From Plantibacter sp. Leaf314 (GTDB lineage Bacteria; Actinomycetota; Actinomycetes; Actinomycetales; Microbacteriaceae): a DNA stretch of 64,000 nucleotides. The stretch lies in NCBI RefSeq assembly GCF_001423185.1, contig NZ_LMOB01000001.1, positions 1,347,889 through 1,411,888 on the forward strand, in the 5' to 3' direction. Under the pieces are notes generated by a model. The model saw only the letters and a list, made by a program, of their open reading frames with translations, did no database searches and was not told the DNA's origin. Below, piece after piece: positions 1 through 39,009 of this stretch. Numbering within the stretch: the first letter of the stretch is position 1; each line of letters opens with the position of its first letter. The translations under genes and the position numbers were made by a program.

Positions 1-15
1 GGGGGTGGTCGACAT
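1..15 (-). CDS. 5' end of a truncated gene, probably the next step of hydroxyproline catabolism
   Basis: Only the first five codons (M-S-T-T-P) lie in the window. On the minus strand the sequence reads GGAGGATCACATG, a strong ribosome binding site at correct spacing, 26 bases after the stop of the hydroxyproline epimerase gene and on the same strand, so it looks like the next cistron of the operon. The pathway encoded upstream ends at 2-oxoglutarate semialdehyde, so the missing enzyme would be 2-oxoglutarate semialdehyde dehydrogenase. That identity is inference from the pathway, not from this sequence. Confidence 0.5.
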
Positions 16-41
16 GTGATCCTCCGGGATCGTGGAGCGGG

Positions 42-1043
42 TCAGAACTGGAAGCCGGTCGGGAACGGATCGGCGGGGTCGAGCAGGTACGAGCCCATGC
101 CCGTGACCCAGGCCCGACCCGAGATGGTGGGGATCACCGCCGGTCGGCCCGCGACCGTCGTCTCGGCGATGAGGCGGCCGGTGAACCGGCTGCCGATGAA
201 GGACTCGTTGACGAAGTCCTGGTGGAGCGGCAACTCGCCGCGAGCCCAGAGTTCGGCCATGCGTGCCGAGGTGCCGGTTCCGCACGGGGAGCGGTCGAAC
301 CACCCGGGGAAGATCGCCATCGCGTGCCGGGACAGCACGGCGTCGGAGCCCGGCGCGATGAACTCGACGTGGTGGCAGTGGTCGAGCCCCTCGATCTCCG
401 GGTGCACTGGCGGTGCCTGCTCGTTGATCGCGGCCATGATCCGCAGGCCGGCGTCGAGGATGTCCTGCTGCCGGTCGCGGTCGAACGGCAGACCGACGGC
501 GTCGAGGTCGACCATGGCGTAGAAGTTGCCCCCGAAGGCGAGGCTGTAGGGCACGGTGCCGAGCCCCGGCACCTCGATGACTGCGTCCAGGCGCTCGACG
601 TAACTCGGCACGTTCTCGAGGGTGACCCGGTCGGCGTGACCGTCGCTCACGTCGACCCGGGCGATCACGAGCCCGGCGGGGGTGTCGAGCCGGATCGTCG
701 TCACCGGCTCGACCACCTCCACCATGCCGGTCTCGACGAGGACCGTGGCGACCCCGATCGTGCCGTGCCCGCACATCGGCAGGCACCCGGACACCTCGAT
801 GTACACGACTCCCCAGTCGCAGTCGGCGCGCGTCGAGGGCTGCAGGATCGCGCCGCTCATCGCCGCATGACCGCGCGGCTCGTTCATGAGGAACAGCCGG
901 AGGTCGTCCAGGTGCTCCATGAAGTGCAGCCGCTTGTCGTTCATCGTCGCGCCGGGGATCACGCCGACCCCGCCGGTGACGACGCGGGTCGGCATGCCCT
1001 CGGTGTGCGAGTCGACCGCGCTGATCATGCGGGAGGACTTCAT
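42..1043 (-). CDS. 4-hydroxyproline 2-epimerase (proline racemase family)
   Basis: A cofactor-independent epimerase that would convert trans-4-hydroxy-L-proline to cis-4-hydroxy-D-proline in the cytoplasm. The 333 residues match the usual family length. Both acid/base cysteines are visible: C91 in MCGHGTIG and C254 in DRSPCGTGTSARMA. Having both argues for a racemase/epimerase and against trans-3-hydroxyproline dehydratase, in which the second cysteine is replaced. It follows a DapA-family gene after 51 bases and the three dehydrogenase genes, which fits hydroxyproline rather than proline as substrate. A proline racemase activity cannot be excluded from the sequence alone. Confidence 0.9.
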   Translation of the reverse strand: MKSSRMISAVDSHTEGMPTRVVTGGVGVIPGATMNDKRLHFMEHLDDLRLFLMNEPRGHAAMSGAILQPSTRADCDWGVVYIEVSGCLPMCGHGTIGVATVLVETGMVEVVEPVTTIRLDTPAGLVIARVDVSDGHADRVTLENVPSYVERLDAVIEVPGLGTVPYSLAFGGNFYAMVDLDAVGLPFDRDRQQDILDAGLRIMAAINEQAPPVHPEIEGLDHCHHVEFIAPGSDAVLSRHAMAIFPGWFDRSPCGTGTSARMAELWARGELPLHQDFVNESFIGSRFTGRLIAETTVAGRPAVIPTISGRAWVTGMGSYLLDPADPFPTGFQF

Positions 1044-1094
1044 CGGGTGCTCCTCGGTGCTCGGGTGTCCAGGTGCTCGGCGTTCGGCGCTCGG

Positions 1095-2009
1095 TTAGCG
1101 GGCGGCGAGGTAGTCGAGCGCGCGGCGCGTCTGCGTCGTCACCTGCTCCGTCTGCAGCGCGCTGAGCGGGCCGCGCGGCGGCCGCGTCGGTCCACCGTAG
1201 CTCTCGCCGGCGATGTCGATCGACAGCTTGATGGCCTGCACGAACTCGGTCTTCGAGTCCCAGCCGAAGACGGGCACCAGCTCCCGGTACAGGGTGCGGG
1301 CCTCGTCCACCCGGCCGGAGGTGACGAGCGTGTACAGCTCGACCGCTTCGCGCGGGAACGCGTTCGGGTAGCCGGCGAACCAGCCGACGGCACCGGCGAC
1401 GAGGGATTCGAAGAGGAGGTCGTCGGCTCCGGCGATGACGTCGAGGTCGGTCTTGTCCTGGATCTCCAGCACCCGACGGATGTCCGCCGAGAACTCCTTC
1501 ACCGCGACGACGTGCTCGAGCTTCGCGAGCTCGACGAGGAGGTCGGGCGTGAGGTCGACCTTGGTGTCGATGGGGTTGTTGTAGGCCATGATCGGCAGGC
1601 CGACCTCGTTCACGCGGCTGTAGTGCTCGATGACCTCGTCGTCGTTGGCCCGGTAGATGGTGGGCGGCAGGAGCAGGACACCGTCGGCGCCGTCCTCCTT
1701 GGCGTACTCGGCCCACTGCTGCGCCTGGTGCCAGCCCACGCCGTGCACGCCGGCGACGACGAGTCCGCGGTCACCGACGGTGTCGACGGCGACCTGGATC
1801 ACCTTGCGACGCTCCGCGTCCGTGAGCGAGGAGTACTCGCCGAGGGAACCGTTCGGGCCGACGCCGCGGCAGCCGTTCTCGATGAGCCAGTTGCAGTGCT
1901 CGGCGAAGCGGTCGTAGTCGACGGCCAGGCCGGCGGGAGCTGACGCGTCCTCCTTGAACGCGAGGGTGGTCGCGACGATGACGCCGCCGAGGTCGAACTG
2001 CTGGGCCAT
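1095..2009 (-). CDS. DapA-family lyase, probable 1-pyrroline-4-hydroxy-2-carboxylate deaminase
   Basis: A class I aldolase-fold protein of 304 residues from the dihydrodipicolinate synthase/N-acetylneuraminate lyase family. The Schiff-base lysine is K171 in VVAVKEF, and the family GxxG(S/T)xGE motif is present as GPNGSLGEYSSL. In hydroxyproline degradation a family member deaminates pyrroline-4-hydroxy-2-carboxylate to 2-oxoglutarate semialdehyde. That role is assigned here because the gene sits between the epimerase and the D-hydroxyproline dehydrogenase genes on one strand. Lysine biosynthesis is unlikely in this context. The start ATG has GAAAGGAACC upstream. Confidence 0.8.
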   Translation of the reverse strand: MAQQFDLGGVIVATTLAFKEDASAPAGLAVDYDRFAEHCNWLIENGCRGVGPNGSLGEYSSLTDAERRKVIQVAVDTVGDRGLVVAGVHGVGWHQAQQWAEYAKEDGADGVLLLPPTIYRANDDEVIEHYSRVNEVGLPIMAYNNPIDTKVDLTPDLLVELAKLEHVVAVKEFSADIRRVLEIQDKTDLDVIAGADDLLFESLVAGAVGWFAGYPNAFPREAVELYTLVTSGRVDEARTLYRELVPVFGWDSKTEFVQAIKLSIDIAGESYGGPTRPPRGPLSALQTEQVTTQTRRALDYLAAR

Positions 2010-2050
2010 GGGTGGTTCCTTTCCGAGGGTGTGACGCGGCGACCGGTCGG

Positions 2051-3556
2051 TCAGCCGAGGGGTTCGGTCGACGGGGTCGACGTCGGTTCATGCGGGGCGG
2101 GTTCCGGCCCGTGCGCGGCGAGTTCGCCGATGCGGATCGGGGAGGCGATGGGCCGGCGGTCGCTCGAGACGCCGTCGATGAGCCCGTCGCCGCCGGACTC
2201 CCGGGCGACGCGGTGCAGCAGCTCCTCGACCGTCCGGCCGCACATCCGGCCCTGGCAGATCCCGAGGCCCGCGCGGGTGCTGAGTTTCAACGAGCGCAGA
2301 CCGGTCGCGCAGGTGGCGGTCGCCGTGCCGCGGAGGGCACCGTGGTCGACCTCCTCGCAGCGGCAGATGGTGGTGTCGTCCTCGAGCCAGTCGCTCCACC
2401 CCTCGCGGATGCCGTGCGCCCGTTCGAGTCGATCGGTGAAGGCCAGGAAGGTGTCGCGACGGCTCACAGCGGAGCGGATGCCGGAGGCTCCCGGCAGACC
2501 GCCGGCGGCCGCGTGTCCCGCGATCGCCCCTTCCGCGAGCGCTGCGTCGACCCCGCCGATGCCGGTGATCTCCCCGGCGGCGAAGACGGTCGGGACACTC
2601 GTCCGCTGCTCGGCGTCGACCTCGACGAACCGGGTCGGGGTGAGCGCGCATCCGGCGGCGATCGCGAGTTCGAGTCGTGGGGTGAAGCCGTGGCTCACGC
2701 AGACGGCGTCGGCCTCCACGGTGCGCTCGGTGCCGGGGATCGGCGACCAGTCGGCGTCGACGGCCGCGATGGTGACCCGTTCGACCCGCTCGGTGCCGTG
2801 CGCGGCGACGACGGCGTGACCGACGCGGTACGGGATCCGGTGCCTGAGGTGGCCACCGACGTAGCCGATGAGCTCGCCGACCTTCCCGGTGACGCCGAGC
2901 AGCTGCCACGGCTTCGGGAGCCAGCCGGCCGCGAGTCCCCCGACGGTCGTGGCCTCGTAGACGCCGAGGACGCGCGATCCGGTCGCGGTGAGCGAGGCGG
3001 CGACCGGCAGGAGGAACGGTCCGGCACCCGCGACGACGACCCGCTGCCCGACGGCCACGCGCTCGCCCTTCGCGAGGGCCTGGGCGGCACCGGCCGAGAA
3101 CACGCCGGGGAGGTCCCATCCCGGGAACGGGAGGGTGCGGTCGTGCGCGCCGGTCGCGAGGACGAGCGCGTCCGGCCGGAGGGTGAGCGGCGTGCGGTCC
3201 GCGCCGTCGGGCGGGCCGACGAGGACGTGGAGGCGCAGCCCGGTCGCCGTGGTGTCGTCGGCGGGGGCGTCGCGGTCGACGTCGATCGCCCACACCTGGG
3301 CCTCGGTCACGACCGTGCAGCCGGCGTCGGCGTCGAGCGCGGCGCGTATGGCGAGGAAGCGCTCGAAGCCGTGGTGCAGGGACGCCTCGGCGGCGGACGG
3401 ACGACTCGCCGGCAGGTGCCGCCAGTACTGACCGCCGAGTTCGTCGGAGGCGTCGAGCAGCGTCACCGACGCGCCGAGCGCCCGGGCGGCGAGGGCGGCC
3501 TGCAGCCCGGCCGGGCCGGCGCCGACCACGACGACGTCGCGCCGACGGGCGCTCAC
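2051..3556 (-). CDS. D-hydroxyproline dehydrogenase, FAD/[2Fe-2S] subunit (HcnB/OoxA-like)
   Basis: A 501-residue flavoprotein with an N-terminal dinucleotide-binding motif VVVVGAGPAGLQ directly after the start, a pyridine nucleotide-disulphide oxidoreductase core, and a C-terminal BFD-like [2Fe-2S] domain with cysteines C398, C400, C434 and C439 (CRC...CQGRMC). This layout is that of the large subunit of HcnABC/opine-oxidase-type amino acid dehydrogenases. The GTG start at 3556 is chosen because it gives a 4-base GTGA overlap with the preceding Fe-S gene and places the GxGxxG motif at residue 9. The open frame extends further upstream but that part only overlaps its neighbour. With the next two genes it should oxidise cis-4-hydroxy-D-proline. 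Confidence 0.85.
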   Translation of the reverse strand: MSARRRDVVVVGAGPAGLQAALAARALGASVTLLDASDELGGQYWRHLPASRPSAAEASLHHGFERFLAIRAALDADAGCTVVTEAQVWAIDVDRDAPADDTTATGLRLHVLVGPPDGADRTPLTLRPDALVLATGAHDRTLPFPGWDLPGVFSAGAAQALAKGERVAVGQRVVVAGAGPFLLPVAASLTATGSRVLGVYEATTVGGLAAGWLPKPWQLLGVTGKVGELIGYVGGHLRHRIPYRVGHAVVAAHGTERVERVTIAAVDADWSPIPGTERTVEADAVCVSHGFTPRLELAIAAGCALTPTRFVEVDAEQRTSVPTVFAAGEITGIGGVDAALAEGAIAGHAAAGGLPGASGIRSAVSRRDTFLAFTDRLERAHGIREGWSDWLEDDTTICRCEEVDHGALRGTATATCATGLRSLKLSTRAGLGICQGRMCGRTVEELLHRVARESGGDGLIDGVSSDRRPIASPIRIGELAAHGPEPAPHEPTSTPSTEPLG

Positions 3557-3915
3557 GATCGACCCTCGAGCGGCTCGGGCTCGGGTGCAGGTTCGGACAC
3601 CGGCCGTGGCAGGGCGTCGTGCTGGGTCTCGATGCGGTCGCCGTCGCTCGCCCGACGCTGGCACGCCCGTACGTCCCGCTGACCGTTCACCGTGACGATG
3701 CAGTCGAAGCACACGCCGATGCCGCAGAAGACGCCACGAGGCTTCCCGGAACCGCTCGTACGACGCCAGGCGAGGACGCCGGAACCGAGCAGGACGCCGG
3801 CGATCGTCTGGCCGCGGAGCCCGTCGACGGGGGTGCCGTCGAGCTCGATGCGCACCGCGTCCTCCGTACCCGGCACGATGCGGTCGCTCGTGGCCGGCAG
3901 TCGTCTCGAGACCAT
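3553..3915 (-). CDS. (2Fe-2S)-binding subunit of D-hydroxyproline dehydrogenase (HcnA/OoxB-like)
   Basis: A 120-residue single-domain ferredoxin-like protein. Four cysteines, C64, C69, C72 and C85, sit in GVFCGIGVCFDCIVTVNG and DVRACQR, the CX4CX2CX12C pattern of small Fe-S subunits of HcnABC-type dehydrogenases. It passes electrons between the FAD subunits. Its ATG shares one base with the upstream stop (TGATG), and its stop overlaps the next GTG start by four bases, so the three subunits are translationally coupled. Confidence 0.85.
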   Translation of the reverse strand: MVSRRLPATSDRIVPGTEDAVRIELDGTPVDGLRGQTIAGVLLGSGVLAWRRTSGSGKPRGVFCGIGVCFDCIVTVNGQRDVRACQRRASDGDRIETQHDALPRPVSEPAPEPEPLEGRS

Positions 3916-5111
3916 CAGGCGACCTCCGCCGCTCGGTCGACGCCGAGGTGGGCGACGAGCCCCTGGCGGTCGAGTTGGAAGGGAGTGTCGTCGAGGGCGG
4001 CGGCTCCGCCGAGCAGCCGCGCGGCGATGAGTTCCGCTGTCGCGAGGGCGAGGCCGATGCCGGCGCCCTCGTGGCCGGTGGCGTGCCAGAGGCCGTCCAC
4101 GCGGTGGTCCGGGCCGATGACCGGGAGGTGGTCGGGCATGTACGGGCGGAACCCGCCGTAGCTGCGCATCACCGAGGCGTCGCGGAGGAACGGGAAGAGG
4201 CGCAACGACTTGCCGGCGACCTCACGGAGCACGTCGACGTCGAGCCGGGCGTCGAAGCCGATCTGCTGGCGGCTCGACCCGATCAGGACGGTCCCTGCGG
4301 CCGTCGACTCGACGACGCTCGAGGTCTGGAGCGACGCGTCGCTCGACTGGGTGGCGCCGAAGTAGTCGCCGTCGTAGACCTTGTGGTGGACGCGGTGCGG
4401 CATACGGGTCGTGACGAGGACCATGCCGCGGCGGGGGCGGACCGGGACGGGTGCACCGAGGACCGCGCCGAGCTCCGCCGACCAGGGGCCGGCACAGACG
4501 AGGACCACGTCGGCCGACACGTCGCCGGCCGAGGTCCGGACGCCCGTGAGCCGACCGGTCGCGCTGCGCAGGCCGCCCGTCACCGTGACCCCGGTCCGGA
4601 CGATCGCGCCCGCCAGCCGCGCCGACGCCAGCAGGGCCTCGGTCGCGATGACCGGCTGGACCTGGGCGTCCTCCGGGTAGTGGACGGCCGCGGTCGACGC
4701 CCGGGTGATCGACGGTTCGGCAGCGAGGAGGTCCGCCTCAGTGAGCGGCCTGGCGTCGACCCCGGCGGTGCGCTGCGCGGCGGCGAAGTCGAGGAGTGGT
4801 TGCGCGCCGGCCTCGGTGGTGGCGACGACGATCCCGCCCTTGCGCTCGAACTCGACGCTCGGGAAGGTCGGTCCCAGTTCGTCCGTGAGCTCGGCGGTGA
4901 CGACGGGCCAGAGTCGCGACGCGTACCGGGCGAGGTCGAGTTCGGGGCCCGGTCCCTTGTCGGAGACGAGGAGGTTCCCCTCGCCGGCACCGCTGGTCCC
5001 ACCCGCCGCGGCCGACCGGTCCAGCACGACCACCTCGGCGCCGCGTCGGGCGAGGATCCGCGCGCAGGCCGCACCGACGATGCCGGCGCCGACGACGACG
5101 ATGCGGGTCAT
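3915..5111 (-). CDS. D-hydroxyproline dehydrogenase catalytic subunit, DAO-type FAD oxidoreductase (HcnC-like)
   Basis: A 398-residue glycine/D-amino-acid-oxidase-family protein. The FAD-binding Rossmann motif VVVGAGIVGAACA starts at residue 5, and the C-terminal DAO signature is GLWHATGHEGAGIGLALATAELIA. The start at 5111 is preferred over an upstream in-frame ATG at 5165 because GAAAGGACC sits just before it and the glycine motif then begins at the N-terminus. It is the first gene of the dehydrogenase/deaminase/epimerase set and lies 37 bases downstream of a palindromic operator. HcnC-like subunits oxidise the amino acid. The D-hydroxyproline specificity is inferred from the neighbouring epimerase and DapA-like lyase. 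Confidence 0.85.
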   Translation of the reverse strand: MTRIVVVGAGIVGAACARILARRGAEVVVLDRSAAAGGTSGAGEGNLLVSDKGPGPELDLARYASRLWPVVTAELTDELGPTFPSVEFERKGGIVVATTEAGAQPLLDFAAAQRTAGVDARPLTEADLLAAEPSITRASTAAVHYPEDAQVQPVIATEALLASARLAGAIVRTGVTVTGGLRSATGRLTGVRTSAGDVSADVVLVCAGPWSAELGAVLGAPVPVRPRRGMVLVTTRMPHRVHHKVYDGDYFGATQSSDASLQTSSVVESTAAGTVLIGSSRQQIGFDARLDVDVLREVAGKSLRLFPFLRDASVMRSYGGFRPYMPDHLPVIGPDHRVDGLWHATGHEGAGIGLALATAELIAARLLGGAAALDDTPFQLDRQGLVAHLGVDRAAEVA

Positions 5112-5148
5112 GGGCGGTCCTTTCGGTCGATACGGGGAAGGCCTGCTC

Positions 5149-5166
5149 AGTAATGTGTCACACATT
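5149..5166. promoter_or_regulatory. Operator of the hydroxyproline dehydrogenase promoter, likely GntR site
   Basis: Contains the perfect 15-base palindrome AATGTGTCACACATT (5152-5166) in the gap between the GntR gene and the dehydrogenase genes. The 13 bases AGTAATGTGTCAC (5149-5161) recur exactly on the minus strand at 16307-16319, in front of the GH127 gene. Position, symmetry and recurrence support an operator. The identity of the binding protein is inferred from adjacency. Confidence 0.65.
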
Positions 5167-5226
5167 CATCGGCTGGGCAAGCGTGCTCTGCGGCGGATCC
5201 GGTCCGGACCACGCGGGGTCGTCGCG

Positions 5227-5916
5227 TTACTCGGCGTCGGACTCCGGCTTGCCGGCCCACCAGCCCGTGGTGTGGCCGATGTGGCGGTGCATGAGGTCGC
5301 GGGCTGCCGCACCGTCGCCGCGTTCGAGGGCGTCGAGGAGCTCGTGGTGTTCGGCCGCCGAGCGGTCGAGCTGCTGGGAGTCGAGCATGGCCGCCAGCCC
5401 CACCAGTCGGGTGCGCCCGCGGAGGTCCTCGACGAGTTCGACCAGCAGCGGGTTGCCGAGCATGGCCGTGAGCGCGAGGTGGAAGGCCTGGTCGGCCTCG
5501 AGGTAGCGGGTCAGGTCGCCGTCGCGTGCACCGGCCACGATGTCGTCGGCCTGACGACGCAGCTCGGGCAGGGACGACGGCTCGAACGTCCCGGCGAGCC
5601 GCTCCATCGCCGGTGGCTCCAGCAGCTGCCGGATCTCGGCGGTGTTGCGGAGGGCCGCCTCGCTGACGACCGTGACCCGGAAGCCCTTGTTCCGCACGGC
5701 CTCGACGAAGTCGCGCTTCTCGAGGTCGAGCATGGCCTCGCGGACGGGCGTCGCCGAGACGTTGAACTGCACCGCGAGGGTCGGCACCGAGAGCATCGTC
5801 CCCGGTGCGAGCTCCCCCGAGATGATCGCCGCCGACACCGCGCGCTCCACCTGTGCTCGCAGGCTCAACCGCTGCTCGGCCGGCCGGATCGCCGTCATGC
5901 TCATCGCGACTCCCAT
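5227..5916 (-). CDS. GntR-family transcriptional regulator (FCD/FadR subfamily)
   Basis: A 229-residue regulator with an N-terminal winged helix (about residues 15-80, with SVPTLAVQFNVSATPVREAM as recognition region) and a C-terminal all-helical FCD domain. The FCD histidines that usually bind a metal and shape the effector pocket appear in DQAFHLAL, AEHHELL and MHRHIGH. It sits between the peptidase genes and the dehydrogenase genes, immediately upstream of a palindromic operator, so it is the obvious local repressor, probably responding to hydroxyproline or a breakdown product. The start is uncertain: ATG 5916 or ATG 5904 (MSMTAIRP), the latter with GGGAG five bases upstream. Confidence 0.9.
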   Translation of the reverse strand: MGVAMSMTAIRPAEQRLSLRAQVERAVSAAIISGELAPGTMLSVPTLAVQFNVSATPVREAMLDLEKRDFVEAVRNKGFRVTVVSEAALRNTAEIRQLLEPPAMERLAGTFEPSSLPELRRQADDIVAGARDGDLTRYLEADQAFHLALTAMLGNPLLVELVEDLRGRTRLVGLAAMLDSQQLDRSAAEHHELLDALERGDGAAARDLMHRHIGHTTGWWAGKPESDAE

Positions 5917-5945
5917 CCTTCGTCTCCCACCGTCGTCGCCTCAGA

Positions 5946-7433
5946 TTAGTGGGCGCGCATCCACGCTTCGATGCCCGACGCGTCGATGGGCAGGGCGTCC
6001 GACAGCACCTCGGCGCCGGTCGCGGTCAGGAGGAGGTCGTCCTCCAGCCGGACCCCGATACCGCGGAGCTCCGGCGGCACCGTCTCGTCGAAGGCGTGGA
6101 AGTACAGGCCCGGTTCGACCGTGAGCACCATGCCCGGAGCCATCGACCCGCCCTGATAGGCCTCGTAGGAGGACATCGCGCAGTCGTGCACGTCGAGCCC
6201 GAGGTGGTGTCCGATGCCGCACACGAGGTACCGGCGATGCTGCTGGCCGGTCGCACTCAGCGCCTCGTCGACGGACACCGGGAGCAGCCCCCAGTCGTGG
6301 AGGCCCTGCGCGATGACCTCCATCGCCGCGTGGTGGAAGTCGGTGAAGTCACGCCCTGGCCGCACCGCCGCCATACCGGCTCGATGGGACGCCTCGACGA
6401 GGTCGTGCACGCTGCGCTGTTCCGGGCTGAACGTCCCGGACACCGGGAAGGTGCGGGTCACGTCGGCCGTGTAGAAGGCCCGCGTCTCCACGCCCATGTC
6501 GAGCAGGATCGCGTCCTCCCCCCGGACGGGTCCGTCGCAGCGCACCCAGTGCAGGGTCGGTGCGTGGGCGCCGCTGCCGACGATGGTGGAGTACCCGGGT
6601 CCGTTCCCGGTCGTCCGGGCGTGCCGGTCGAAGGTGCCCTGCAGCCACCGTTCCCCGCCGCCCGCCACCGCGGTGGGCAGCTCACGGATCACCGCGGAGA
6701 ACCCGCCGACCGTCGCGTCCACGGCCCGGCGCAGCTCGGCGATCTCCCACTCGTCCTTGATCATCCGGAGCTCGGACAGGACGCGACCGAGTTCCGGCGA
6801 GAGGGTCAGCGGAGTGAGCGCCTCGTGCCGCGACGTCAGACTCCCCGCGAGGAGCGGCCGCTCGGCACCGCGGAGGGCGTCCGGGAGGGCCGACAGCAGC
6901 TCGACCCGCAGGTCGAGGACGGCCGACCAGTCGGACGGCCCCGGGGCGGACCCGACCCACAGCTCACCGTGGTTGGCGTCGGCGAAGAAGCCCGTCTCGC
7001 CCGGGTGCGCCGGAGCGGGGATGTAGAGCGTCGCATCGTGCCCGGAACCGCTCGGTCGCAGGACCACGACGGCGTCCTCCGCGGAGCACCCCGTTGCCCA
7101 GAAGAAGTCGCTGTTCGGCCGGAAGTCGTAGTTCGAGTCGTTGGCGCGGACGGGGGCCCTGCCGGACGCGATCACGAGGGTCCGACCGGGGAAGGCGGCG
7201 CTCAACCGCTCCCGATGCGCTGCCGCCGCCGCGGCGATCCCCGGCTCCACCGGGGGCGTGCGGTCGGGCGTGCCCCACCCGGTGCTGAGGAACTCGCGGA
7301 ACGCGGGCACCTCGGTCAGTCGGGGCAGCCGCGGGTCCGGGGTCGCCGGCTTCGGCATCGAGGCGGCCGGCGCCTCAGCGGTCGCCGGGGCGATACCCGC
7401 CACCTGCGCGGTCGTGTCGTCGGGGTCGATCAT
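5946..7433 (-). CDS. M24-family Xaa-Pro aminopeptidase (aminopeptidase P)
   Basis: A cytoplasmic dimetal peptidase of 495 residues that removes the residue preceding proline. The creatinase/APP fold is recognisable: an N-terminal domain (about 70-230), then the pita-bread domain with metal ligands D312 and D324 (LLDMGVETRAFYTADVTRTF), the histidine in GIGHHLGLDVHD, and the glutamates in TVEPGLYF and IGVRLEDD. Its start overlaps the stop of the proline iminopeptidase gene by four bases (ATGA). Pairing with an iminopeptidase, a peptide importer and hydroxyproline catabolic genes argues for a role in digesting imported proline/hydroxyproline-rich peptides. Confidence 0.9.
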   Translation of the reverse strand: MIDPDDTTAQVAGIAPATAEAPAASMPKPATPDPRLPRLTEVPAFREFLSTGWGTPDRTPPVEPGIAAAAAAHRERLSAAFPGRTLVIASGRAPVRANDSNYDFRPNSDFFWATGCSAEDAVVVLRPSGSGHDATLYIPAPAHPGETGFFADANHGELWVGSAPGPSDWSAVLDLRVELLSALPDALRGAERPLLAGSLTSRHEALTPLTLSPELGRVLSELRMIKDEWEIAELRRAVDATVGGFSAVIRELPTAVAGGGERWLQGTFDRHARTTGNGPGYSTIVGSGAHAPTLHWVRCDGPVRGEDAILLDMGVETRAFYTADVTRTFPVSGTFSPEQRSVHDLVEASHRAGMAAVRPGRDFTDFHHAAMEVIAQGLHDWGLLPVSVDEALSATGQQHRRYLVCGIGHHLGLDVHDCAMSSYEAYQGGSMAPGMVLTVEPGLYFHAFDETVPPELRGIGVRLEDDLLLTATGAEVLSDALPIDASGIEAWMRAH

Positions 7434-9618: not shown

Positions 9619-10496
9619 GCTCGTGCCTCTCCGGTGGTGGTGGTCCTCGCGGGCCGTTCGGTGAACGCGTCGTCGATCCGCGGGAGGGCGTCGAGGAGGG
9701 CGCGGGTGTACGGCTCCCTGGGGTGCGAGAAGATCTCCTCCGCACTGCCCGTCTCGACGGGGTCGCCGCCACGCATGACGAGCACGTCGTCGGCGACCTG
9801 GCTGACCACCGCGAGGTCGTGGGTGATGAAGATCATCCCGGCGCCGGTCTCACGTTGCAGCTCCGAGAGCAGCTCGAGGATCTGGGCCTGGACCGTGACG
9901 TCGAGCGCGGTCGTCGGCTCGTCGGCGATGAGGAGGTCGGGTTCCAGACACAGCGCCATCGCGATCATGATGCGTTGCCGCATGCCGCCGGAGAACTGGT
10001 GCGGGTAGTGGTCGACGCGTCTGGCGGCGTCGGCGATGCGCACCCGTTCGAGCGCGTCGATCGTGACGGCTCTGGCGGCCTTCCGCGATCCCCCGCGGTG
10101 CGCGCGGTACGCCTCCTCGATCTGCAGCCCGACCGTGTAGTACGGATTGAGCGAGGAGAGCGGGTCCTGGAAGACCATCGCGATCCGGTCGCCGCGCACG
10201 CGACGCATCTCGCGGTCGCTCCGCCCGACGAGCTCGTGGCCGCTCAGCCGGACGCTGCCGGTCGTCCGGCCACCGCTCGGGAGCAGGCCCATGATGGCGA
10301 GCGACGTCATCGACTTGCCGGAGCCGGACTCGCCCACGATGCCGAGCGTCTGCCCGTGTTGGACGGAGAACGACGCCTTCCGCACCACGTCGACGTCGCC
10401 GGCCGTGGTGGGGAAGGTGACCGTGAGGTCGTCGACCTCGAGGAGCGACGCCCCGGGGACGGGCAGGGAGATGGTCCTGGTGACGGTGGGGCTCAT
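9615..10496 (-). CDS. Peptide ABC transporter ATP-binding protein (DppD/OppD-like)
   Basis: A 293-residue ABC ATPase starting at ATG 10496 ([10 protein letters not shown]), with a 4-base overlap with the permease stop. The frame is open much further upstream but that stretch is antiparallel noise within the permease gene. Walker [19 protein letters not shown], signature [15 protein letters not shown] and Walker [14 protein letters not shown] are all present. It pairs with the DppF-like protein to form the heterodimeric motor of a family-5 peptide importer. Confidence 0.92.
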
Positions 10497-11488
10497 GCGC
10501 TCTTCACTCTCACTCTCGGGTCGAGGACCGTGTACACGACGTCGACCACCACGTTGCCGATGACGACGAAGAACGCCGCCAGCAGGGTGACGCCCATGAT
10601 CACGGGCTGGTCGTTCTTGGCGATCGAGTCGGCGGCCAACTTGCCGACGCCGTTCAGGCCGAAGACCGTCTCCGTGATGAGCGCACCGCCGAGGAGTCCG
10701 GCGAAGTCCATGCCGAACAGGGTGACGACGGGGGTGAGCGCCGGTCGCAGGGCGTGGCGGCGCAGGATGAGCGGCGCTGGCAGGCCCTTCGCGCGGGCGG
10801 TCCGCATGAAGTTCTCGCCGAGCGTGTCGATGACGTTGGCGCGGACGAGCCTCGCGTACATCGACGCGTAGCCCAGGGCGAGCACGATCCACGGCATCAG
10901 GTAGTTCTGGAACCAGCGCACGGGGTCCTCGGCGAACGGGACCGCCTGCGGGAACGGCAGGATCTGCAGTTGCACCACGAGGACGTACTGCAGCAGGAGC
11001 GCGAGGAAGTAGTTCGGCAGGCTGATGCCGGCGAGGGCAACCATCATCGCCCCGCGGTCCCAGCCGGTGCCCTGCTTGACCGCGCTGAGCAGGCCGCCGC
11101 TGACGCCGACGAGCAGCCACAGCACCGCGGCGCCGACGGCGACGGTCACGGTCACGGGGAAGCGTGCGACGATCATGTCCATGACCGACTCGTTGGTCTG
11201 GAAGCTGAAGCCGAGGCACGGTGCCGCGCAGGAGACCGCAGAGGCCCCTTCGCCGTAGCTCCGGCCCATGACGAGCCCGCGGAGGAACTCGAGGTACTGC
11301 TGCCAGAACGGCTGGTCCAGCCCGAGCTGCGCACGGATCTGGTCGATCCGGTCGGGCGTGCAGGTCTTGCCGCAGATCTGCACCGCCGGGTCCGGCGAGA
11401 GCAGGAAGAAGATCATGTAGGTGAAGAGGCTGATGAGGAGGAGGATGCCGATCGCCGAGGCGATGCGACGCAGCAGGTAGAGGGTCAT
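10493..11488 (-). CDS. Peptide ABC transporter permease (DppB/OppB-like)
   Basis: A 331-residue inner-membrane permease. The start ATG at 11488 (MTLYLLRRIASAIGI) gives the characteristic first membrane helix and overlaps the upstream permease stop by four bases. About six hydrophobic segments are visible, with the family EAA loop GLPAPLILRRHALRPALTPV. The large periplasm-facing loop after helix 1 contains two cysteines (ICGKTC) and two more further on (SCAAPC), unusual for the family and possibly disulphide-forming. Confidence 0.9.
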   Translation of the reverse strand: MTLYLLRRIASAIGILLLISLFTYMIFFLLSPDPAVQICGKTCTPDRIDQIRAQLGLDQPFWQQYLEFLRGLVMGRSYGEGASAVSCAAPCLGFSFQTNESVMDMIVARFPVTVTVAVGAAVLWLLVGVSGGLLSAVKQGTGWDRGAMMVALAGISLPNYFLALLLQYVLVVQLQILPFPQAVPFAEDPVRWFQNYLMPWIVLALGYASMYARLVRANVIDTLGENFMRTARAKGLPAPLILRRHALRPALTPVVTLFGMDFAGLLGGALITETVFGLNGVGKLAADSIAKNDQPVIMGVTLLAAFFVVIGNVVVDVVYTVLDPRVRVKSA

Positions 11489-12444
11489 GAGGCGGCGTCT
11501 CCCGAGTCGAGGGCCTTGCGCAGGTGGTCGCCGAGCACGGTGAACGACAGCACGGTGAGGAACAGGAAGGTGCCGGGGATGAGGAAGTACATCGGGTCGA
11601 CCGCGTACCAGCCGACCGCGCTGGCGATCATCTGGCCCCAGCTCGGCGTGGGCGGCGTGACGCCGACGCCGAGGAACGACAGGCCGGCCTCCGTGCCGAT
11701 GAAGCCCGGCACGGCGAGCGTGGCCAGGACGATGATGGTGCCGCGGAGGTTCGGCAGGATCTCGCGGAACACGATGCGGATGCCCCCGGCGCCCGAGGCG
11801 CGCGCCGACTCGACGAACTCGCTCGTCCGCAAGGACATCGCCTGACCGCGCACGACGCGGGCGGTGTACGGCCAACCGAAGATGCTCAGCACCACGACGA
11901 GGAGGACCGGCCGGTTGCCCGCCGGCAGTGCCGACAGGAGCGCGATCATGAAGATGAGCGACGGGAACGCCATGAGGAAGTCCATGACGCGGGAGACGAC
12001 CTGGTCGACCCACCCGCCGTAGAAGCCGGCGAGCATGCCGAGCACGACGCCGAGCACGGTCGTGACGATCGTCGCCGAGACGGCGATCGACAGCGACACC
12101 TGCGCACCGAAGGCGATGCGCGCGAAGATGTCGCGTCCGTTCCCGGGTTCGACCCCGAACCAGTGCTCGCCGGAGATCCCGCCGAGCGCACCGATCGGCA
12201 CGCCGCCGAGGTCGGAGTCCACCGCCGACTTGTCGAAGGTGTACGGACCCCAGCCGCTGATCGCGGTGATCAGCGGGGCGAGGATCGCGAGCAGCACGAC
12301 GAGCACGATGAAGGTGACGCTGAGCAGCACCGGGGGGCTCTTGCGGAGGGTGGCGATCACCCGCCGCGCGGGGGTGGGCGCACCGGCCGGCGCACCCACC
12401 TCCTCGGCGACGGTGGTCAGCTCACTGGGAACGGACGACGACAT
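11485..12444 (-). CDS. Peptide ABC transporter permease (DppC/OppC-like)
   Basis: A 319-residue permease with the N-terminal OppC_N region (RKSPPVLLSVTFIVLVVLLA) and five further hydrophobic segments. The EAA loop is visible around ARASGAGGIRIVFREILPN. It follows the substrate-binding protein gene by 21 bases and overlaps the DppB-like gene by four bases. It forms the channel with the DppB-like subunit. Confidence 0.92.
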   Translation of the reverse strand: MSSSVPSELTTVAEEVGAPAGAPTPARRVIATLRKSPPVLLSVTFIVLVVLLAILAPLITAISGWGPYTFDKSAVDSDLGGVPIGALGGISGEHWFGVEPGNGRDIFARIAFGAQVSLSIAVSATIVTTVLGVVLGMLAGFYGGWVDQVVSRVMDFLMAFPSLIFMIALLSALPAGNRPVLLVVVLSIFGWPYTARVVRGQAMSLRTSEFVESARASGAGGIRIVFREILPNLRGTIIVLATLAVPGFIGTEAGLSFLGVGVTPPTPSWGQMIASAVGWYAVDPMYFLIPGTFLFLTVLSFTVLGDHLRKALDSGDAAS

Positions 12445-12465
12445 CTGCGGCTACCGGCCTTCCGA

Positions 12466-14160
12466 CTACTCGCCGGCCGAGGACAGGCCGACGGACACGT
12501 AGTCGATACCGCCGGAGTAGCCGGCGTGGGAGTACGCACCGGCGACGTTGGCGCCGACGACCATGACGGTCTTCTCGAAGAGCAGCGGCACGGTCGGGAC
12601 GAGCTGCTGGATCTGCTCGTCGAGCGCACCCCACGCGGCGTTCGCCTCATCGGTGTCGGTCATCGCGCGGATCTCGGCGATGCGCTGGTTGACGGCCGGG
12701 TCGTTCAGCTGGGCGATGTTGGAGTTGCCCTTCGGGAAGATCTGCGAACCGTCGAAGAGCGGCGGCAGGAAGGTCGAGCCGGAGGCCCAGTCCGGGCACC
12801 AACCGGTGATGGCGGCGTCGTTCTGCTGCGACGTCGTTCCGATGACCTCGTAGTAGGTCGAGGTGTCGATGAGGTTGAAGTTCACCGTGATGCCCGCCTT
12901 CGCGAGCGCCTGCTGCACCGCCTCGGCCTGCGCCTGCATCTTGGGCTGGCTGCGGATGTCGAGGGTGAAGGAGAAGCCGTCGGGGAGGCCCGCCTCGGCG
13001 AGGAGTTCCTTGGCCTTCTCCGGGTCGCCGGCGTTGTCCTTGCTCGGGTAGAGGTCGAAGTCGGTCTGACCGGCGACGGTCGGCGGCAGCATGGTGGTCG
13101 CGATGTCCGCGAGCTGCGAACCGCCCGAGGCGTCCTTCACCGACTCGCGGTCGATGGCGTAGGCGATGGCCTGGCGGACGAGCGGGTTGTCCATGTTGGG
13201 CTTCGTGGTGTTCAGGCCCATGTACGTGGTGCAGCCCTGGAGGCCGGAGATGGTGCGCGCCTTCAGCGCGGGCGTCTGGATCCGGGAGATGGAGGCCGCC
13301 TGCACGGATCCGGCGATGGCGTTGGCGTCGTCACCCTGGCCGGCGATCATGCGCTCGTCGATGGTCGAGGCGTCGAGGCCGAAGGTGAAGTCGAAGCCGT
13401 CCGGGTAGGCCTTGCGGACGTCGTCCGTCTTCGCGTCCCACTCGTCGTTGCGGACGAGCTTCAGCTGCGAACCGCGCTCGTAGCTCTCGACCTTGTACGG
13501 GCCGGAGGAGATCGGCATCTTGTCGAGGCTCGTCGTCGTCACCCGCTCGGTGTCGGCCGGGAACGGGACGAAGCTGTTCTGTCCGACGACGCTCGCGAAG
13601 TCGGCGAAGGGCTCCTTGAGGCTGAAGACGATGGTCTTGTCGTCCGGCGTCTGGATGGACGGCAGGTCACCGGTGATGTACGGACCCTCGTACGTGTCCG
13701 CGCCGGCGATGGTGAGGCGGGCGTAGGGCGACCCGACGGCGATGGCCGGGTCGAAGGAGCGCTCGACGCCGAACTTGACGTCTGCGCTCGTGATGGGGGT
13801 GCCGTCCTCGAACTTGAGGTCGTCCTTCAGCGTGAAGGTCCACTGGAGGCCGTCGTCGCTCACGGTGCCGAGGTCGGTCGCGAGGTCGGGGACCATCTCG
13901 GTGCCTTTGGCCCCTTCGCCCGTGGACTGCGTCGTCAACGTGCGGTAGATGAGGCGGTAGAAGTTGTTCACGCCACCGTCGAAGCCCTGGACCGGGTCGA
14001 GGTGGGAGAAGTCCGCGTTCAGGAGGACGTCGACGGTGCCTCCCTTGACCGGGGTGCTGGAGGGGCCCTCACCCGCCGAGCCCGAGCCCGCGGAGGTACA
14101 CCCCGCGAGGAGGAGGACGGCCGCCGCCGCGAGGGCGGGGATGGAGAATCGTTGCTTCAT
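12466..14160 (-). CDS. Family-5 ABC substrate-binding lipoprotein
   Basis: A 564-residue SBP_bac_5 protein. The signal peptide ends in the lipobox LLLAGC with C21 as the lipidation site, followed by a Ser/Gly linker, so the protein is anchored outside the membrane. The family core is recognisable in WTFTLKDDLKFEDGTPITSADVKFGVERSF. Family members bind di/oligopeptides, nickel or glycoconjugates. Here the downstream proline peptidases and the upstream GH127 gene suggest hydroxyproline-rich peptides, possibly still arabinosylated. The specificity is inference. Confidence 0.92.
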   Translation of the reverse strand: MKQRFSIPALAAAAVLLLAGCTSAGSGSAGEGPSSTPVKGGTVDVLLNADFSHLDPVQGFDGGVNNFYRLIYRTLTTQSTGEGAKGTEMVPDLATDLGTVSDDGLQWTFTLKDDLKFEDGTPITSADVKFGVERSFDPAIAVGSPYARLTIAGADTYEGPYITGDLPSIQTPDDKTIVFSLKEPFADFASVVGQNSFVPFPADTERVTTTSLDKMPISSGPYKVESYERGSQLKLVRNDEWDAKTDDVRKAYPDGFDFTFGLDASTIDERMIAGQGDDANAIAGSVQAASISRIQTPALKARTISGLQGCTTYMGLNTTKPNMDNPLVRQAIAYAIDRESVKDASGGSQLADIATTMLPPTVAGQTDFDLYPSKDNAGDPEKAKELLAEAGLPDGFSFTLDIRSQPKMQAQAEAVQQALAKAGITVNFNLIDTSTYYEVIGTTSQQNDAAITGWCPDWASGSTFLPPLFDGSQIFPKGNSNIAQLNDPAVNQRIAEIRAMTDTDEANAAWGALDEQIQQLVPTVPLLFEKTVMVVGANVAGAYSHAGYSGGIDYVSVGLSSAGE

Positions 14161-14242
14161 GACGCTCTGCTTTCGTGTGGATCGGGCGGATGCCCGCGGA
14201 TGGAGAGGGTGGAGCGGTGCGAGGGGAACGGGTCGAGGAAGG

Positions 14243-16249
14243 TCAGCGAGTGCGGAACCACACGCGCATGGCGCCGGGTCCGCGGTTGCCCCAGAGGGCG
14301 TAGGGGATGAGGGTCGCGGTGGTCTCGCGCATCGGCTCGGCGGGCGGTGGTGTCGCTCCAGCGGGCGTCGAGCCGCCGCCGGTCAGCGCCGGGTAGAGCA
14401 CGGCCGGTGCCGGGGCGTCCGCCATGGCCGGGAGGAGGAGCGCGACGGCGTCGATGCGCTCGGTCTCGAGGATGCGGCGGTGCTCGACGACGGCGCGATC
14501 GGCGTCCGCCGGTAAGAGGCGGAGCAGGTCGAGGTCGGTCGTGCCGTCCTCCTGCTCGGCGCAGTAGACGACCGGTCCGCGCGCGAACGCCAGTGATCCG
14601 CGGAGGGCGTCGACCGAGGGGTGCGCGCCGTGCGCCCGGACCGGCATCGGGAGGTCGAGTTCGACCCGCTCCCCCGCCGTCCATCGGCGGGTGAGGCGGA
14701 TCCAGCCGTCGACCGGTCGGGCGTCCACGGACTCACCGGCGACACGGACGGTGGCGTCCGTCGCCCAGCCGGGCACCCGCAGGGCGAGCTCGACCTCGGC
14801 GGTGTCGGCGGCGTCGACCGTGACGACGACCGAGCCGTCCCACGGGTACGCGGTGTCGACCGTGCAGCTGAAGCGCTCGGTCTCGATGGTCGCCGCGGTG
14901 TACTGGGCGAGCTCGATCCCCACCGGGGTGACCACGGCGAGGTGGTCCTGGAGCTCGGCGGTCCAGCGCACGATGTTCGGCGGGCAGCACGGGCAGCCGA
15001 ACCAGCTGCGACGGAGCAGTCCGCCGTCGGGCTCCGCCCCGGAACGCTGGAGGTGGTCGGGTCGACGCTGGAGCGGGTTGTCGTAGAAGAAGGCCGTACC
15101 GTCGGCCGAGAGTCCGGCGGCGTAGGCGTTGTAGAGGACGGTCTCGAAGGTGTCGAGCACGGCTGCCGAACCCGTCGCGAGGTACATCCGCCAGGACCAC
15201 TGCATGACCGCGATGGCGGCGCAGGTCTCGCTGTACGAGCGCTCGGAGGGGAGCTCGTACCGGTCGCCGATCGCCTCGTCGGAGTGGCGACTCCCGAGCC
15301 CGCCGGTGAAGTAGAGCTTCGTCTCGACCATGTCGTCCCAGAGACGCTGCAGGGCTGCGAGGAGGCCGTCGTCGCCCTGTTCGAGCGCGACGTCCGCGGC
15401 GCCGGCGGCCAGGTAGGCCATCCGGACGGCGTGGCCGGTCACGGAGTCCAGCTCGCGGAGCGGCGCCGAGTCCTGGAAGTACTCCGCCGGGAAGACCCGG
15501 AGTTCGACGGTGCCGTGGCCGCGACGGTCCACGAAGGCGGACGCCAACTCGAGGTAGGACCGCTCGCCCGTCTCACGGAACAGCTCGACGAGCGCCATCT
15601 CCACCTCGGGGTGCCCGCACACCTGTGGGTCGCCGTCCGGTCCGAACCGTCGGACGGCGAGATCGGCGAACGCCCGCGCGACGTCCAGCAGACGCCCGTC
15701 GCCGAGCCTCCGCTGTGCGGCCACGGCTGCCTGGATGAGGTGGCCGAGGTTGTAGAGCTCGTGCCCCCAGGCCAGGTCCTCCCAGGGCTCCTTGTCGATC
15801 TCGGGCGCCTGGAAGTAGGAGTTCAGGTAGCCGTCCTCTCGTTGGGCGGCCTGGATGACGGCGACGGCCTCCTCGTAGAAGTCGCGGACCGTTCGGGTGA
15901 CCTCGTCATCGCCGTCGTCCTCGGCGAGCAGGTAGGCGAGCCCCTCGAGGGTCTTGAACACGTCGGTGTCGAGGAACGGGTAGCGGCCCCGGAAGGCACC
16001 CGTCGCGTCCTCGGGATCGGCGACCCTGGCGAGGTTGTCGAGGTTGCCGGCGAGTCGGAGCTGCTCGATCGCGTGCGGCGCGGTCGCCCGGCGGTTCCGC
16101 CGCTGCCACGCGCCGAGTTCACCCTCGCCCAACCGGACCCGTCCGGCGGCCACGGGAACACGGTGTCCGGCGACGGGGTGGACGGCACCTGCCTCGCGAT
16201 CCGCGCGCACGGCGGCGCTCGCTGTTCGGGCGTCTTCATCGAAGCTCAT
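14243..16249 (-). CDS. GH127 beta-L-arabinofuranosidase (HypBA1-like)
   Basis: A 668-residue glycoside hydrolase. The GH127 zinc/cysteine site is intact: E341 and C343 in SYSETCAAIAV, and C421-C422 in GCPCCPPNIVRW, matching Glu338, Cys340, Cys417 (nucleophile) and Cys418 of Bifidobacterium longum HypBA1. That enzyme releases L-arabinose from beta-L-arabinofuranosides linked to hydroxyproline in plant extensins. The start at 16249 (MSFDEDARTAS) has GAAAGG upstream; an in-frame ATG at 16315 lies upstream of the putative operators. No signal peptide is present, so it should act in the cytoplasm on imported substrate. It is the first gene of the locus, 82 bases before the substrate-binding protein gene. 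Confidence 0.9.
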   Translation of the reverse strand: MSFDEDARTASAAVRADREAGAVHPVAGHRVPVAAGRVRLGEGELGAWQRRNRRATAPHAIEQLRLAGNLDNLARVADPEDATGAFRGRYPFLDTDVFKTLEGLAYLLAEDDGDDEVTRTVRDFYEEAVAVIQAAQREDGYLNSYFQAPEIDKEPWEDLAWGHELYNLGHLIQAAVAAQRRLGDGRLLDVARAFADLAVRRFGPDGDPQVCGHPEVEMALVELFRETGERSYLELASAFVDRRGHGTVELRVFPAEYFQDSAPLRELDSVTGHAVRMAYLAAGAADVALEQGDDGLLAALQRLWDDMVETKLYFTGGLGSRHSDEAIGDRYELPSERSYSETCAAIAVMQWSWRMYLATGSAAVLDTFETVLYNAYAAGLSADGTAFFYDNPLQRRPDHLQRSGAEPDGGLLRRSWFGCPCCPPNIVRWTAELQDHLAVVTPVGIELAQYTAATIETERFSCTVDTAYPWDGSVVVTVDAADTAEVELALRVPGWATDATVRVAGESVDARPVDGWIRLTRRWTAGERVELDLPMPVRAHGAHPSVDALRGSLAFARGPVVYCAEQEDGTTDLDLLRLLPADADRAVVEHRRILETERIDAVALLLPAMADAPAPAVLYPALTGGGSTPAGATPPPAEPMRETTATLIPYALWGNRGPGAMRVWFRTR

Positions 16250-16265
16250 GGGCGACAGGCCTTTC

Positions 16266-16286
16266 TGTACCGTGTGACACAGTACA
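16266..16286. promoter_or_regulatory. Palindromic operator overlapping the GH127 leader
   Basis: A 21-base imperfect palindrome, TGTAC-N-GTGT-N-ACAC-N-GTACA, with 18 of 21 positions symmetric. It lies 17-37 bases upstream of the GH127 start codon. Its core on the minus strand, TGTGTCACAC, equals the core of the palindrome at 5152-5166. It probably binds the same GntR regulator and would block transcription or early elongation. Confidence 0.6.
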
Positions 16287-16306
16287 CCGATACCGGTTTG
16301 TGGTGG

Positions 16307-16319
16307 GTGACACATTACT
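16307..16319 (-). promoter_or_regulatory. Second TGTGTCAC site upstream of the GH127 gene
   Basis: Reads AGTAATGTGTCAC on the minus strand, identical over 13 bases to 5149-5161. The right half-site is degenerate (CCCACC instead of ACACATT). It lies about 20 bases from the palindrome at 16266-16286, roughly two helical turns, so two regulator dimers could bind side by side. The TAATGT within it could also be part of a -10 element. Confidence 0.55.
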
Positions 16320-19587: not shown

Positions 19588-19736
19588 AGCTCCTTCATAC
19601 CGCATGGAGCCGAACGGCGATCCAGGCGGGCGGCGGTTCGACACGGCGTCCCCGGTGGACGCCGCGATCATAGGGGCCCCGCCCACCGGACGCGATGCCG
19701 GTCGCGGTGTCGGTGGTGTGCTGGATGATGGAACCC

Positions 19737-30243: not shown

Positions 30244-30291
30244 TACCCTGGGCGAATGAGGTTGATCCGGCGTGAATGGGGTACAAGGTGA
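30244..30291 (+). promoter_or_regulatory. Leaderless-type promoter and frameshifted start or 11-codon upstream ORF of the AAA ATPase
   Basis: TACCCT (30244-30249) lies six bases before ATG 30256. That frame reads M-R-L-I-R-R-E-W-G-T-R and stops with TGA at 30289-30291, overlapping GTG 30288 of the ATPase frame by four bases. One extra G in the run at 30278-30281 would instead fuse it as MRLIRREWGYKVRLVFG, a natural-looking ATPase N-terminus. It is either a coupled leader peptide or a single-base frameshift. Confidence 0.4.
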
Positions 30292-38078: not shown

Positions 38079-38158
38079 CCACCCACCCGAGTTCCGGCTC
38101 CGGCCGGACACCCGAACCGACCGAACCCCAGAACCACCCGAAGAACAGGAGTTCCACC

Positions 38159-39007: not shown

Positions 39008-39009
39008 GC

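Follow-up and report, generated by a model that had tools for sequence, protein, structure and literature searches.

Why should a glycosidase of family GH127 (the beta-L-arabinofuranosidase family), a peptide importer, two proline-type peptidases and the genes of hydroxyproline (Hyp) catabolism lie in one run in the stretch of Plantibacter sp. Leaf314 DNA analysed here (contig NZ_LMOB01000001.1, positions 1,347,889 to 1,411,888; 64,000 nucleotides, hereafter the window)? The gene content, the conservation of the block, a common promoter sequence and a GH127 protein with no apparent signal peptide point to a locus under Hyp control for the catabolism of plant Hyp-arabinosides or arabinosylated Hyp peptides, which we consider the probable answer. 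According to the proposed route, a solute-binding lipoprotein (SBP) and an Opp-type ATP-binding cassette (ABC) importer would take up short Hyp peptides still bearing beta-L-arabinofuranose, the cytoplasmic GH127 would strip the arabinose, and the Xaa-Pro aminopeptidase together with an iminopeptidase-like enzyme would free Hyp. The epimerase, the three-subunit D-Hyp dehydrogenase, the DapA-type deaminase and an aldehyde dehydrogenase would then convert Hyp to 2-oxoglutarate, while a HypR-like GntR protein would repress both promoters and be released once Hyp products appear. Pfam and NCBIfam scans, combined with scoring of open reading frames (ORFs), gave the following genes:

42-16249, minus: gene cluster of 14 genes, GH127 through epimerase
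14243..16249, minus: GH127 (beta-L-arabinofuranosidase family), 668 aa, first gene of the import block (PF07944/PF20736/PF20737)
12466..14160, minus: family-5 solute-binding lipoprotein, peptide type (PF00496; lipobox LAGC)
11485..12444, minus: ABC permease, OppC type (PF00528, PF12911)
10493..11488, minus: ABC permease, OppB type (PF19300, PF00528, scanned in a longer frame; start by ORF scoring)
9615..10496, minus: ABC ATPase 1, oligo_HPY (PF00005, PF08352, scanned in a longer frame; start by ORF scoring)
8740..9618, minus: ABC ATPase 2, oligo_HPY (PF00005, PF08352)
7430..8743, minus: proline iminopeptidase-like alpha/beta hydrolase, 437 aa (PF00561)
5946..7433, minus: Xaa-Pro aminopeptidase, M24 with AMP_N (PF00557, PF05195)
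5227..5916, minus: GntR/FCD regulator, candidate HypR-like repressor (PF00392, PF07729)
3915..5111, minus: D-Hyp dehydrogenase DAO subunit, HcnC-like (PF01266)
3553..3915, minus: D-Hyp dehydrogenase small subunit with 2Fe-2S-type cysteine cluster, HcnA-like (120-aa frame, CGIGVCFDC)
2051..3556, minus: D-Hyp dehydrogenase Pyr_redox_2/Fer2_BFD subunit, HcnB-like (PF07992, PF04324)
1095..2009, minus: DapA-type deaminase, putative pyrroline-4-hydroxy-2-carboxylate deaminase (PF00701; role from gene order)
42..1043, minus: 4-hydroxyproline 2-epimerase, Cys/Cys type (PF05544; MCGH and DRSPCGTG motifs)
1..15, minus: first codons of a candidate alpha-ketoglutaric semialdehyde dehydrogenase (PF00171 and translation)

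A codon-usage ORF caller returned the same 14 genes. All the genes listed in the initial annotation stand on the minus strand, as it had claimed for an uninterrupted one-strand set; its description of the locus as complete needs extension, since the named genes are present but the cluster runs past the window edge into the aldehyde dehydrogenase, which lies 3′ of the epimerase with its start codon at 13-15 and the remainder outside the window. With this gene following the epimerase, each step to 2-oxoglutarate can in principle be assigned a gene. Cluster neighbours overlap six times by four bases of stop and start codon; five of these overlaps tie together six genes, from the Xaa-Pro aminopeptidase to the OppC-type permease, and one ties HcnA to HcnB. 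The home genome measures 3.96 Mb, and its closest named relatives are Plantibacter (97% identity at the iminopeptidase-like gene), from which its family is taken to be Microbacteriaceae.

Conservation of the block, counted by orthologues of the SBP and both permeases, was followed in 80 iminopeptidase-anchored loci of named genomes. These are the best 80 of 280 confirmed loci and all are close relatives of one protein, so the frequencies hold for that set alone. GH127 was present in 39 of the 44 loci with an orthologous importer, under 14 genus-level labels (13 Nonomuraea, 8 Kribbella, 4 Plantibacter, 3 Streptomyces, 2 Streptosporangium and nine single labels), and a GH127 orthologue without the importer occurred in 0 of the 80. 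The epimerase or the D-Hyp dehydrogenase lay within the stretch in 12 of the 44 importer loci, and a DapA-type gene alone in ten more. One such gene, from Nonomuraea L046, shares 82% identity with its DapA counterpart in the Hyp operon of Micromonospora L037, and the Specibacter block (L036) is accompanied by a different lineage of Hyp genes (epimerase 69%, HcnC 51%). An epimerase was also present in 29/29 block genomes into which loci were followed (best matches 68-83% identity) and in 21/396 genomes of a phylum sample (E 1e-110 or better), two counts that differ both in the relatedness of the genomes and in the threshold for the epimerase. GH127 itself occurred in 2 of the 396 genomes, too rarely for cross-tabulation; a sample of the family is the better control.

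In this family sample, 15 of 199 genomes contained GH127 at 58% identity or more (the next match being 51%), and the iminopeptidase was located about 7-8 kb from it in 14 of the 15. The epimerase was within 17 kb of GH127 in 13, of which 12 have the same order and one (G053, L126) a divergent arrangement; the other two (G079, G003) encode it elsewhere. All 15 GH127 genomes carried the epimerase (at least 68% identity) versus 30 of the 184 others. When any GH127 match was counted, 15 of the 28 genomes holding both genes had them 20 kb or less apart (0.47 expected); relatedness is removed only when genera are counted, which gave 8 linked genera of 16 (0.46 expected). Among the 15 linked genomes, G101 and G179 have their Hyp operon next to another GH127 lineage (37-39% identity). 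The initial annotation had named a lack of conservation of the neighbourhood outside the strain as a refuting outcome, but the synteny proved to be conserved across actinobacterial genera. A second GH127 lineage (37-39% identical) adjoins Hyp operons in L127 and L128, which come from two other genera of the family.

The two promoters of the locus share an operator-like sequence, represented in the window by three sites:

5150..5162, plus: GTAATGTGTCACA, D-Hyp dehydrogenase promoter, best motif site in the window
16306..16318, minus: GTAATGTGTCACC, upstream of GH127, second best motif site in the window
16273..16285, minus: GTACTGTGTCACA, upstream of GH127, third best motif site in the window

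This ranking (5155, 16312 and 16279, respectively) was obtained with a motif trained on nine D-Hyp-dehydrogenase promoters of other genomes, in stretches without GH127. The motif was then applied to 26 test loci hand-picked to span genera (25 of the 39 GH127 block loci and L126): its first- or second-ranked site fell in the GH127 promoter in 18, and in five more the top site preceded the start of the GH127 alignment by 29-74 bp. Exact GTAMTGTGTCACM, a pattern drawn from the window sites, occurs three times in the 3.96 Mb home genome, always at this locus, and allowing one mismatch added four places elsewhere. In Streptomyces coelicolor, HypR recognises the Hyp operon through TGCAATGTCAC-type sites, according to the accessible text of the report (PMC6608401). 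In the subset of loci inspected, TGCAATGTCAC was found in Kribbella and Specibacter GH127 promoters and TGCAATGCCAC in Nonomuraea ones, while several Microbacteriaceae sites read GTAAT(A/G)TGTCAC. With at most one mismatch, TGCMATGTCAC was present in 20 of 41 GH127 upstreams, many of which come from close relatives, versus 3.5% of 540 control upstreams from the same loci. The S. coelicolor consensus is absent from the Plantibacter GH127 promoters, and a variant, the trained motif, occurs at both window promoters. In G079, where the GH127 block and the Hyp operon are 1.17 Mb apart, GTAATATGTCAC is common to both.

Other statistics of the site were less clear. A search for shared 14-mers between the GH127 and D-Hyp-dehydrogenase promoters within individual genomes (12 shuffles each) returned the operator as the best word in 7 of 21 pairs (Plantibacter, Agromyces, Planctomonas, Okibacterium, Microbacterium, G079 and Streptomyces fulvoviolaceus), with scores from one below to one above the shuffle maximum, and unrelated words in 14 (Nonomuraea, Kribbella, Streptosporangium, Glaciibacter, G003 and Streptomyces V4I2). 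As this pairwise result was mixed, the trained motif and the uniqueness in the genome were relied on instead. The pattern statistics of the window alone were weak (four matches at two or fewer mismatches, 1.73 expected; 8 of 100 shuffles as high). A simple promoter scan found no sigma-70-like site, which is uninformative because 0.6 were expected by chance. The protein binding the site may well be the GntR regulator, whose relatives (53-54% identity) adjoin two Streptomyces Hyp operons (L119, L120). Taken together, the synteny and operator tests indicate that the gene grouping is more than chance, and with the co-occurrence of the epimerase they support the earlier proposal that deglycosylation, peptide uptake, proline peptidases and Hyp breakdown form a unit.

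The catabolic half resembles a known operon. In S. coelicolor, HypR/SCO6289-6293 comprises a GntR repressor, a related operator and the order DAO, small subunit, large subunit, DapA and epimerase, and deletion of the epimerase abolished growth on Hyp, which supports this half for the related operon (PMC6608401, accessible text). The Plantibacter cluster has the same order of three-subunit dehydrogenase, DapA and epimerase, plus the GntR gene; its HcnA-like subunit was recognised by the cysteine cluster and not by Pfam. The epimerase, with no second PF05544 match elsewhere in the genome, contains the Cys/Cys catalytic pair in the alignment, where Cys/Cys marks epimerases and Cys/Thr dehydratases by the rule given in the accessible part of PMC4364671. 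Its substrate sites are Ser (site 1), His (site 4) and Ile (site 5), the epimerase type being Ser/Val (rather than Phe), His and Cys/Tyr, and it scored under the equivalog cut-offs of NCBIfam (NF010578, 336 of 376 bits; proline racemase model, 341 of 556). The released sugar could be handled by an arabinose isomerase encoded elsewhere in the genome.

The importer has the Opp/Dpp composition of a family-5 SBP, two permeases and two oligo_HPY ATPases, from which peptide uptake is predicted. The best PDB match of the SBP is the oligopeptide-binding protein 2wok (297 bits), and a lipobox is present in all 45 block SBPs. The top NCBIfam match of the Xaa-Pro aminopeptidase, NF008131, is below the equivalog cut-off (216 of 465 bits). 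In alphaproteobacterial Celeribacter loci (L083, L090, L091), the iminopeptidase-like gene (59-61% identity) is joined by genes for an Opp-type importer, an aldehyde dehydrogenase and a member of the proline racemase family (41%).

In GH127, the catalytic, middle and C-terminal domains (PF07944, PF20736, PF20737) all exceed the Pfam cut-offs; the frame opens at 16315 and the likely start is at 16249. Alignment to PDB entry 3wkw, which we take to be HypBA1, showed that H142, Y145, H194, H270, R273, E322, E338, C340, C417 and C418 are identical. The conserved residues include the Zn site with the catalytic pair (E338, C340, C417, C418) and the acid/base E322, a position at which the aligned entry 7exu carries Q. 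The Zn-coordinating and several binding residues of HypBA1 are named in the accessible text of PMC10850190. No signal peptide was apparent in the Plantibacter protein, and a simple hydropathy test on 41 GH127 proteins of the block (40 distinct, because L085 and L123 overlap) detected none with a hydrophobic N-terminus. Without a signal peptide, the arabinoside acted on by GH127 is probably imported: if the arabinosidase is cytoplasmic, its substrate must enter the cell. Two further GH127-domain genes lie elsewhere in the genome; one neighbours genes for a GH3 enzyme and a LacI regulator, the other sits in a sugar-ABC context.

Several observations weigh against a Hyp-arabinoside locus. GH127 scored higher with 4qjy (335 bits) and 6ex6 (323 bits) than with HypBA1 (275 bits), and its sole NCBIfam match was aceric acid hydrolase, at 348 bits of a 950-bit cut-off. 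Since the zinc/cysteine residues are common to other GH127 enzymes, two of which outscore HypBA1, they do not set the substrate; the HypBA1 site described in the initial annotation is therefore present but not substrate-defining, and the sequence identifies 'GH127', not 'Araf-Hyp' specificity. For the same reason, and with the aceric-acid-hydrolase model far below its cut-off, substrate by homology was rejected as proof. Model scores lend the iminopeptidase assignment little weight: all three NCBIfam matches are iminopeptidase models but are far below their cut-offs (NF045948, 40/500; TIGR01249, 34/260; TIGR01250, 32/168 bits), and in the PDB the Arabidopsis At3g61540 entry 8jgn ranks first (334 bits), followed by named proline iminopeptidases at 31 bits, so the protein is called iminopeptidase-like only. 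No gene of the cluster accounts for extracellular cutting of the wall protein. In 28 of the 39 GH127 block loci, neither epimerase nor dehydrogenase was in the fetched stretch; these 28, with L085, are the 29 loci followed into their genomes. The full union in a single locus was found in some genera only; in the GH127-block genomes of Nonomuraea, Kribbella and Streptomyces the Hyp operon is outside the fetched stretch. The choice of the motif was not blind, the likeness having been seen before training, and the motif failed in 3 of the 26 test loci (L027, rank 4; L036, rank 8, despite an exact HypR site in its GH127 promoter; L052, none). Thirteen of the 41 GH127 upstreams, Plantibacter included, differ from TGCMATGTCAC by three mismatches. 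The patterned site was also missing in 6 of 16 Hyp-operon promoters, namely those of five Kribbella (L111-L115) and of Glaciibacter L122, the latter having a near variant of the site. As all five Kribbella Hyp promoters are without it, only the import block seems to be under the site there. Upstream of HcnC, these Kribbella loci have a different palindrome in common, CGTTCATTTTAGTGAACG or close to it. Finally, HypBA1 in its host cleaves released Ara2 (PMC7263609, accessible text).

This cleavage takes place inside Bifidobacterium longum cells (PMC7263609, same text), and the sugar-binding residues of the Plantibacter GH127 are those of HypBA1. A division of labour like that of Bifidobacterium could thus be imagined, in which free beta-Ara2 is imported, by this or another transporter, and cleaved by GH127 while unglycosylated Hyp peptides are degraded in parallel. 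We regard this as distinctly unlikely, because the importer is of the peptide type, as the best match of its SBP indicates, and forms one gene run with the two proline peptidases, whereas Bifidobacterium relies on a sugar importer and GH121 (GH121 was not searched for here). It is very unlikely that this is an ordinary locus for proline/Hyp peptides, for example from collagen, in which GH127 would be a passenger with another substrate. HypR of S. coelicolor does control a collagenase gene along with the Hyp operon (PMC6608401, accessible text), and the iminopeptidase was near Hyp genes, with no GH127 orthologue there, in 11 of the 36 loci without an orthologous importer. Nevertheless, GH127 belongs to the block in 39 of 44 loci and has the operator-like site at its promoter in most test loci, and members of the same superfamily adjoin other Hyp operons (L127, L128, L123). 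A search for an M9 collagenase gave no match in the genome, but its control matched nothing either.

Within the favoured interpretation, the source of the arabinosylated Hyp could be something other than extensin. Arabinosylated Hyp occurs also in peptide hormones and other plant proteins, and Hyp-Araf3 chains are found on such peptides (PMC8012813, accessible text); an Opp-type importer, which takes short peptides, would suit other arabinosylated Hyp proteins or secreted hormones of the CLE and PSY1 type. Such a source is unlikely, since hormones are probably too scarce as food and since GH36 genes in Leucobacter, Pseudoclavibacter, 13 Nonomuraea and one Sphaerisporangium loci suit the Ser-alpha-Gal of extensin. 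The GH36 alpha-galactosidase directly follows the Xaa-Pro aminopeptidase in Leucobacter L088, whose stretch ends before the importer, and in Pseudoclavibacter; it is within the stretch in the 13 Nonomuraea loci (always on the opposite strand) and the Sphaerisporangium one. There is none in the Plantibacter locus, and five PF02065 genes lie elsewhere in that genome. Extensin serines bear alpha-galactose (PMC4908140; PMC8012813, accessible texts), and thus GH36 in related loci favours extensin, which is likely to be the source.

Five importer loci have no GH127 orthologue (L086, L093, L040, L075, L074). In Glycomyces L086 and Pseudoclavibacter L093, a GH127-domain protein of 954-976 aa (57% mutual identity) is encoded downstream of the Xaa-Pro aminopeptidase, and Pseudoclavibacter also has a GH127 at 33% identity. 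The best PDB matches of the Glycomyces enzyme are 5opj and 8k7x/8k7y, which we take to be GH146; hence we call it GH146-like. GH146 enzymes active on Araf-beta-Hyp are known (PMC10850190, accessible text). In Nonomuraea L040, the position of GH127 immediately ahead of the SBP is taken by a GH35-domain protein recognised by Pfam (2587-4584), possibly for Hyp-galactosides, and Nonomuraea L075 has a protein assigned by its likeness to that one rather than by Pfam; both are preceded upstream by transporter-like genes. No replacement glycosidase was found in the place of GH127 in L074. The Hyp operon of L123 (Intrasporangiaceae) lies between GH127 and a further GH127-domain protein of 953 aa, which also has a LamG domain. 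These loci may reflect a widespread actinobacterial strategy, by which intact O-arabinosylated Hyp peptides of wall or hormone origin would be imported, deglycosylated inside under a Hyp-sensing repressor and served by interchangeable glycosidases; we put its chances slightly below even. The interchangeable set would perhaps consist of GH127, GH146-like, GH35-like for Hyp-galactose and GH36 for Ser-galactose enzymes, and were the glycosidase interchangeable, one importer/peptidase core would serve different plant O-glycans.

Hydroxyproline-rich glycoproteins (HRGPs) are a large, hard-to-digest source of nitrogen and carbon in the plant wall. The parts of the Plantibacter locus are known separately, as far as the accessible texts go, from arabinoside systems (PMC7263609, PMC6085000) and Hyp operons (PMC6608401, PMC4113996), and the published bacterial systems found use either the sugar or the amino acid. 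The HypAA/HypBA2/HypBA1 system of B. longum likewise places a GH127 inside the cell, with catalytic and sugar-binding residues identical to those here, and has an ABC importer alongside, but this is a sugar importer for Ara2 freed by the extracellular GH121, whereas Plantibacter has a peptide-type importer, proline peptidases and Hyp catabolism (PMC7263609). XeHypAA/XeHypBA2/XeHypBA1 of Xanthomonas euvesicatoria attacks Hyp-linked arabino-oligosaccharides and adjoins a prolyl oligopeptidase pseudogene (PMC6085000), but its glycosidases belong to other families, XeHypBA1 being GH146 (PMC10850190); the accessible text of the former names no Hyp catabolic genes and contains 'transporter' 0 times. 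The S. coelicolor HypR regulon, in the part of the paper available, lists a collagenase and a multidrug-type ABC protein but no GH127, peptide importer or iminopeptidase (PMC6608401). The 4HypE genome neighbourhood network (eLife 2014) joins the epimerase with DAAO, DHDPS and aldehyde dehydrogenase, but 'glycos' occurs 0 times in its accessible text (PMC4113996). HRGP use was predicted for Latescibacteria from the presence of GH127 (PMC4454575, accessible text). GH127, peptide importer, proline peptidases and Hyp catabolism joined together were not found in the open-access literature, a search that left most subscription journals uncovered. If our interpretation is true, a conserved, Hyp-controlled locus taking both sugar and amino acid, with import first, would explain how actinobacteria of soil and plant surfaces use the HRGP pool. 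Its genes would serve as markers when metagenomes are searched for these organisms, and its enzymes would be of use in Hyp-arabinoside chemistry. One GH127 clade and an Opp importer lacking an assigned ligand also gain a testable function.

Other parts of the window contain features of a different kind. A 603-aa ATPase-type protein (30276-32087, plus) matched fused AriAB in PADLOC with 572 bits and is a candidate single-protein PARIS-type phage defence; GC content within the window is lowest around this gene (64.9% at 28-32 kb). A 1211-aa SNF2 helicase with a SWIM zinc finger (45039-48674, minus) matched DpdE with 722 bits in PADLOC, perhaps as a mere SNF2 relative. An Lhr-type helicase (19695-24575, plus) is followed by a Fpg/Nei-type DNA glycosylase (24656-25429, plus). 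Glycosyltransferase 2, a PMT-like membrane protein (below the Pfam cut-off) and GH8 are clustered at 34531-40185 (plus), perhaps as an exopolysaccharide locus. A 1456-aa protein with exo/endo-phosphatase, metallophosphatase and 5′-nucleotidase C-terminal domains is encoded at 59559-63929 (minus), and the 60-64 kb segment has an AT skew of -0.146.

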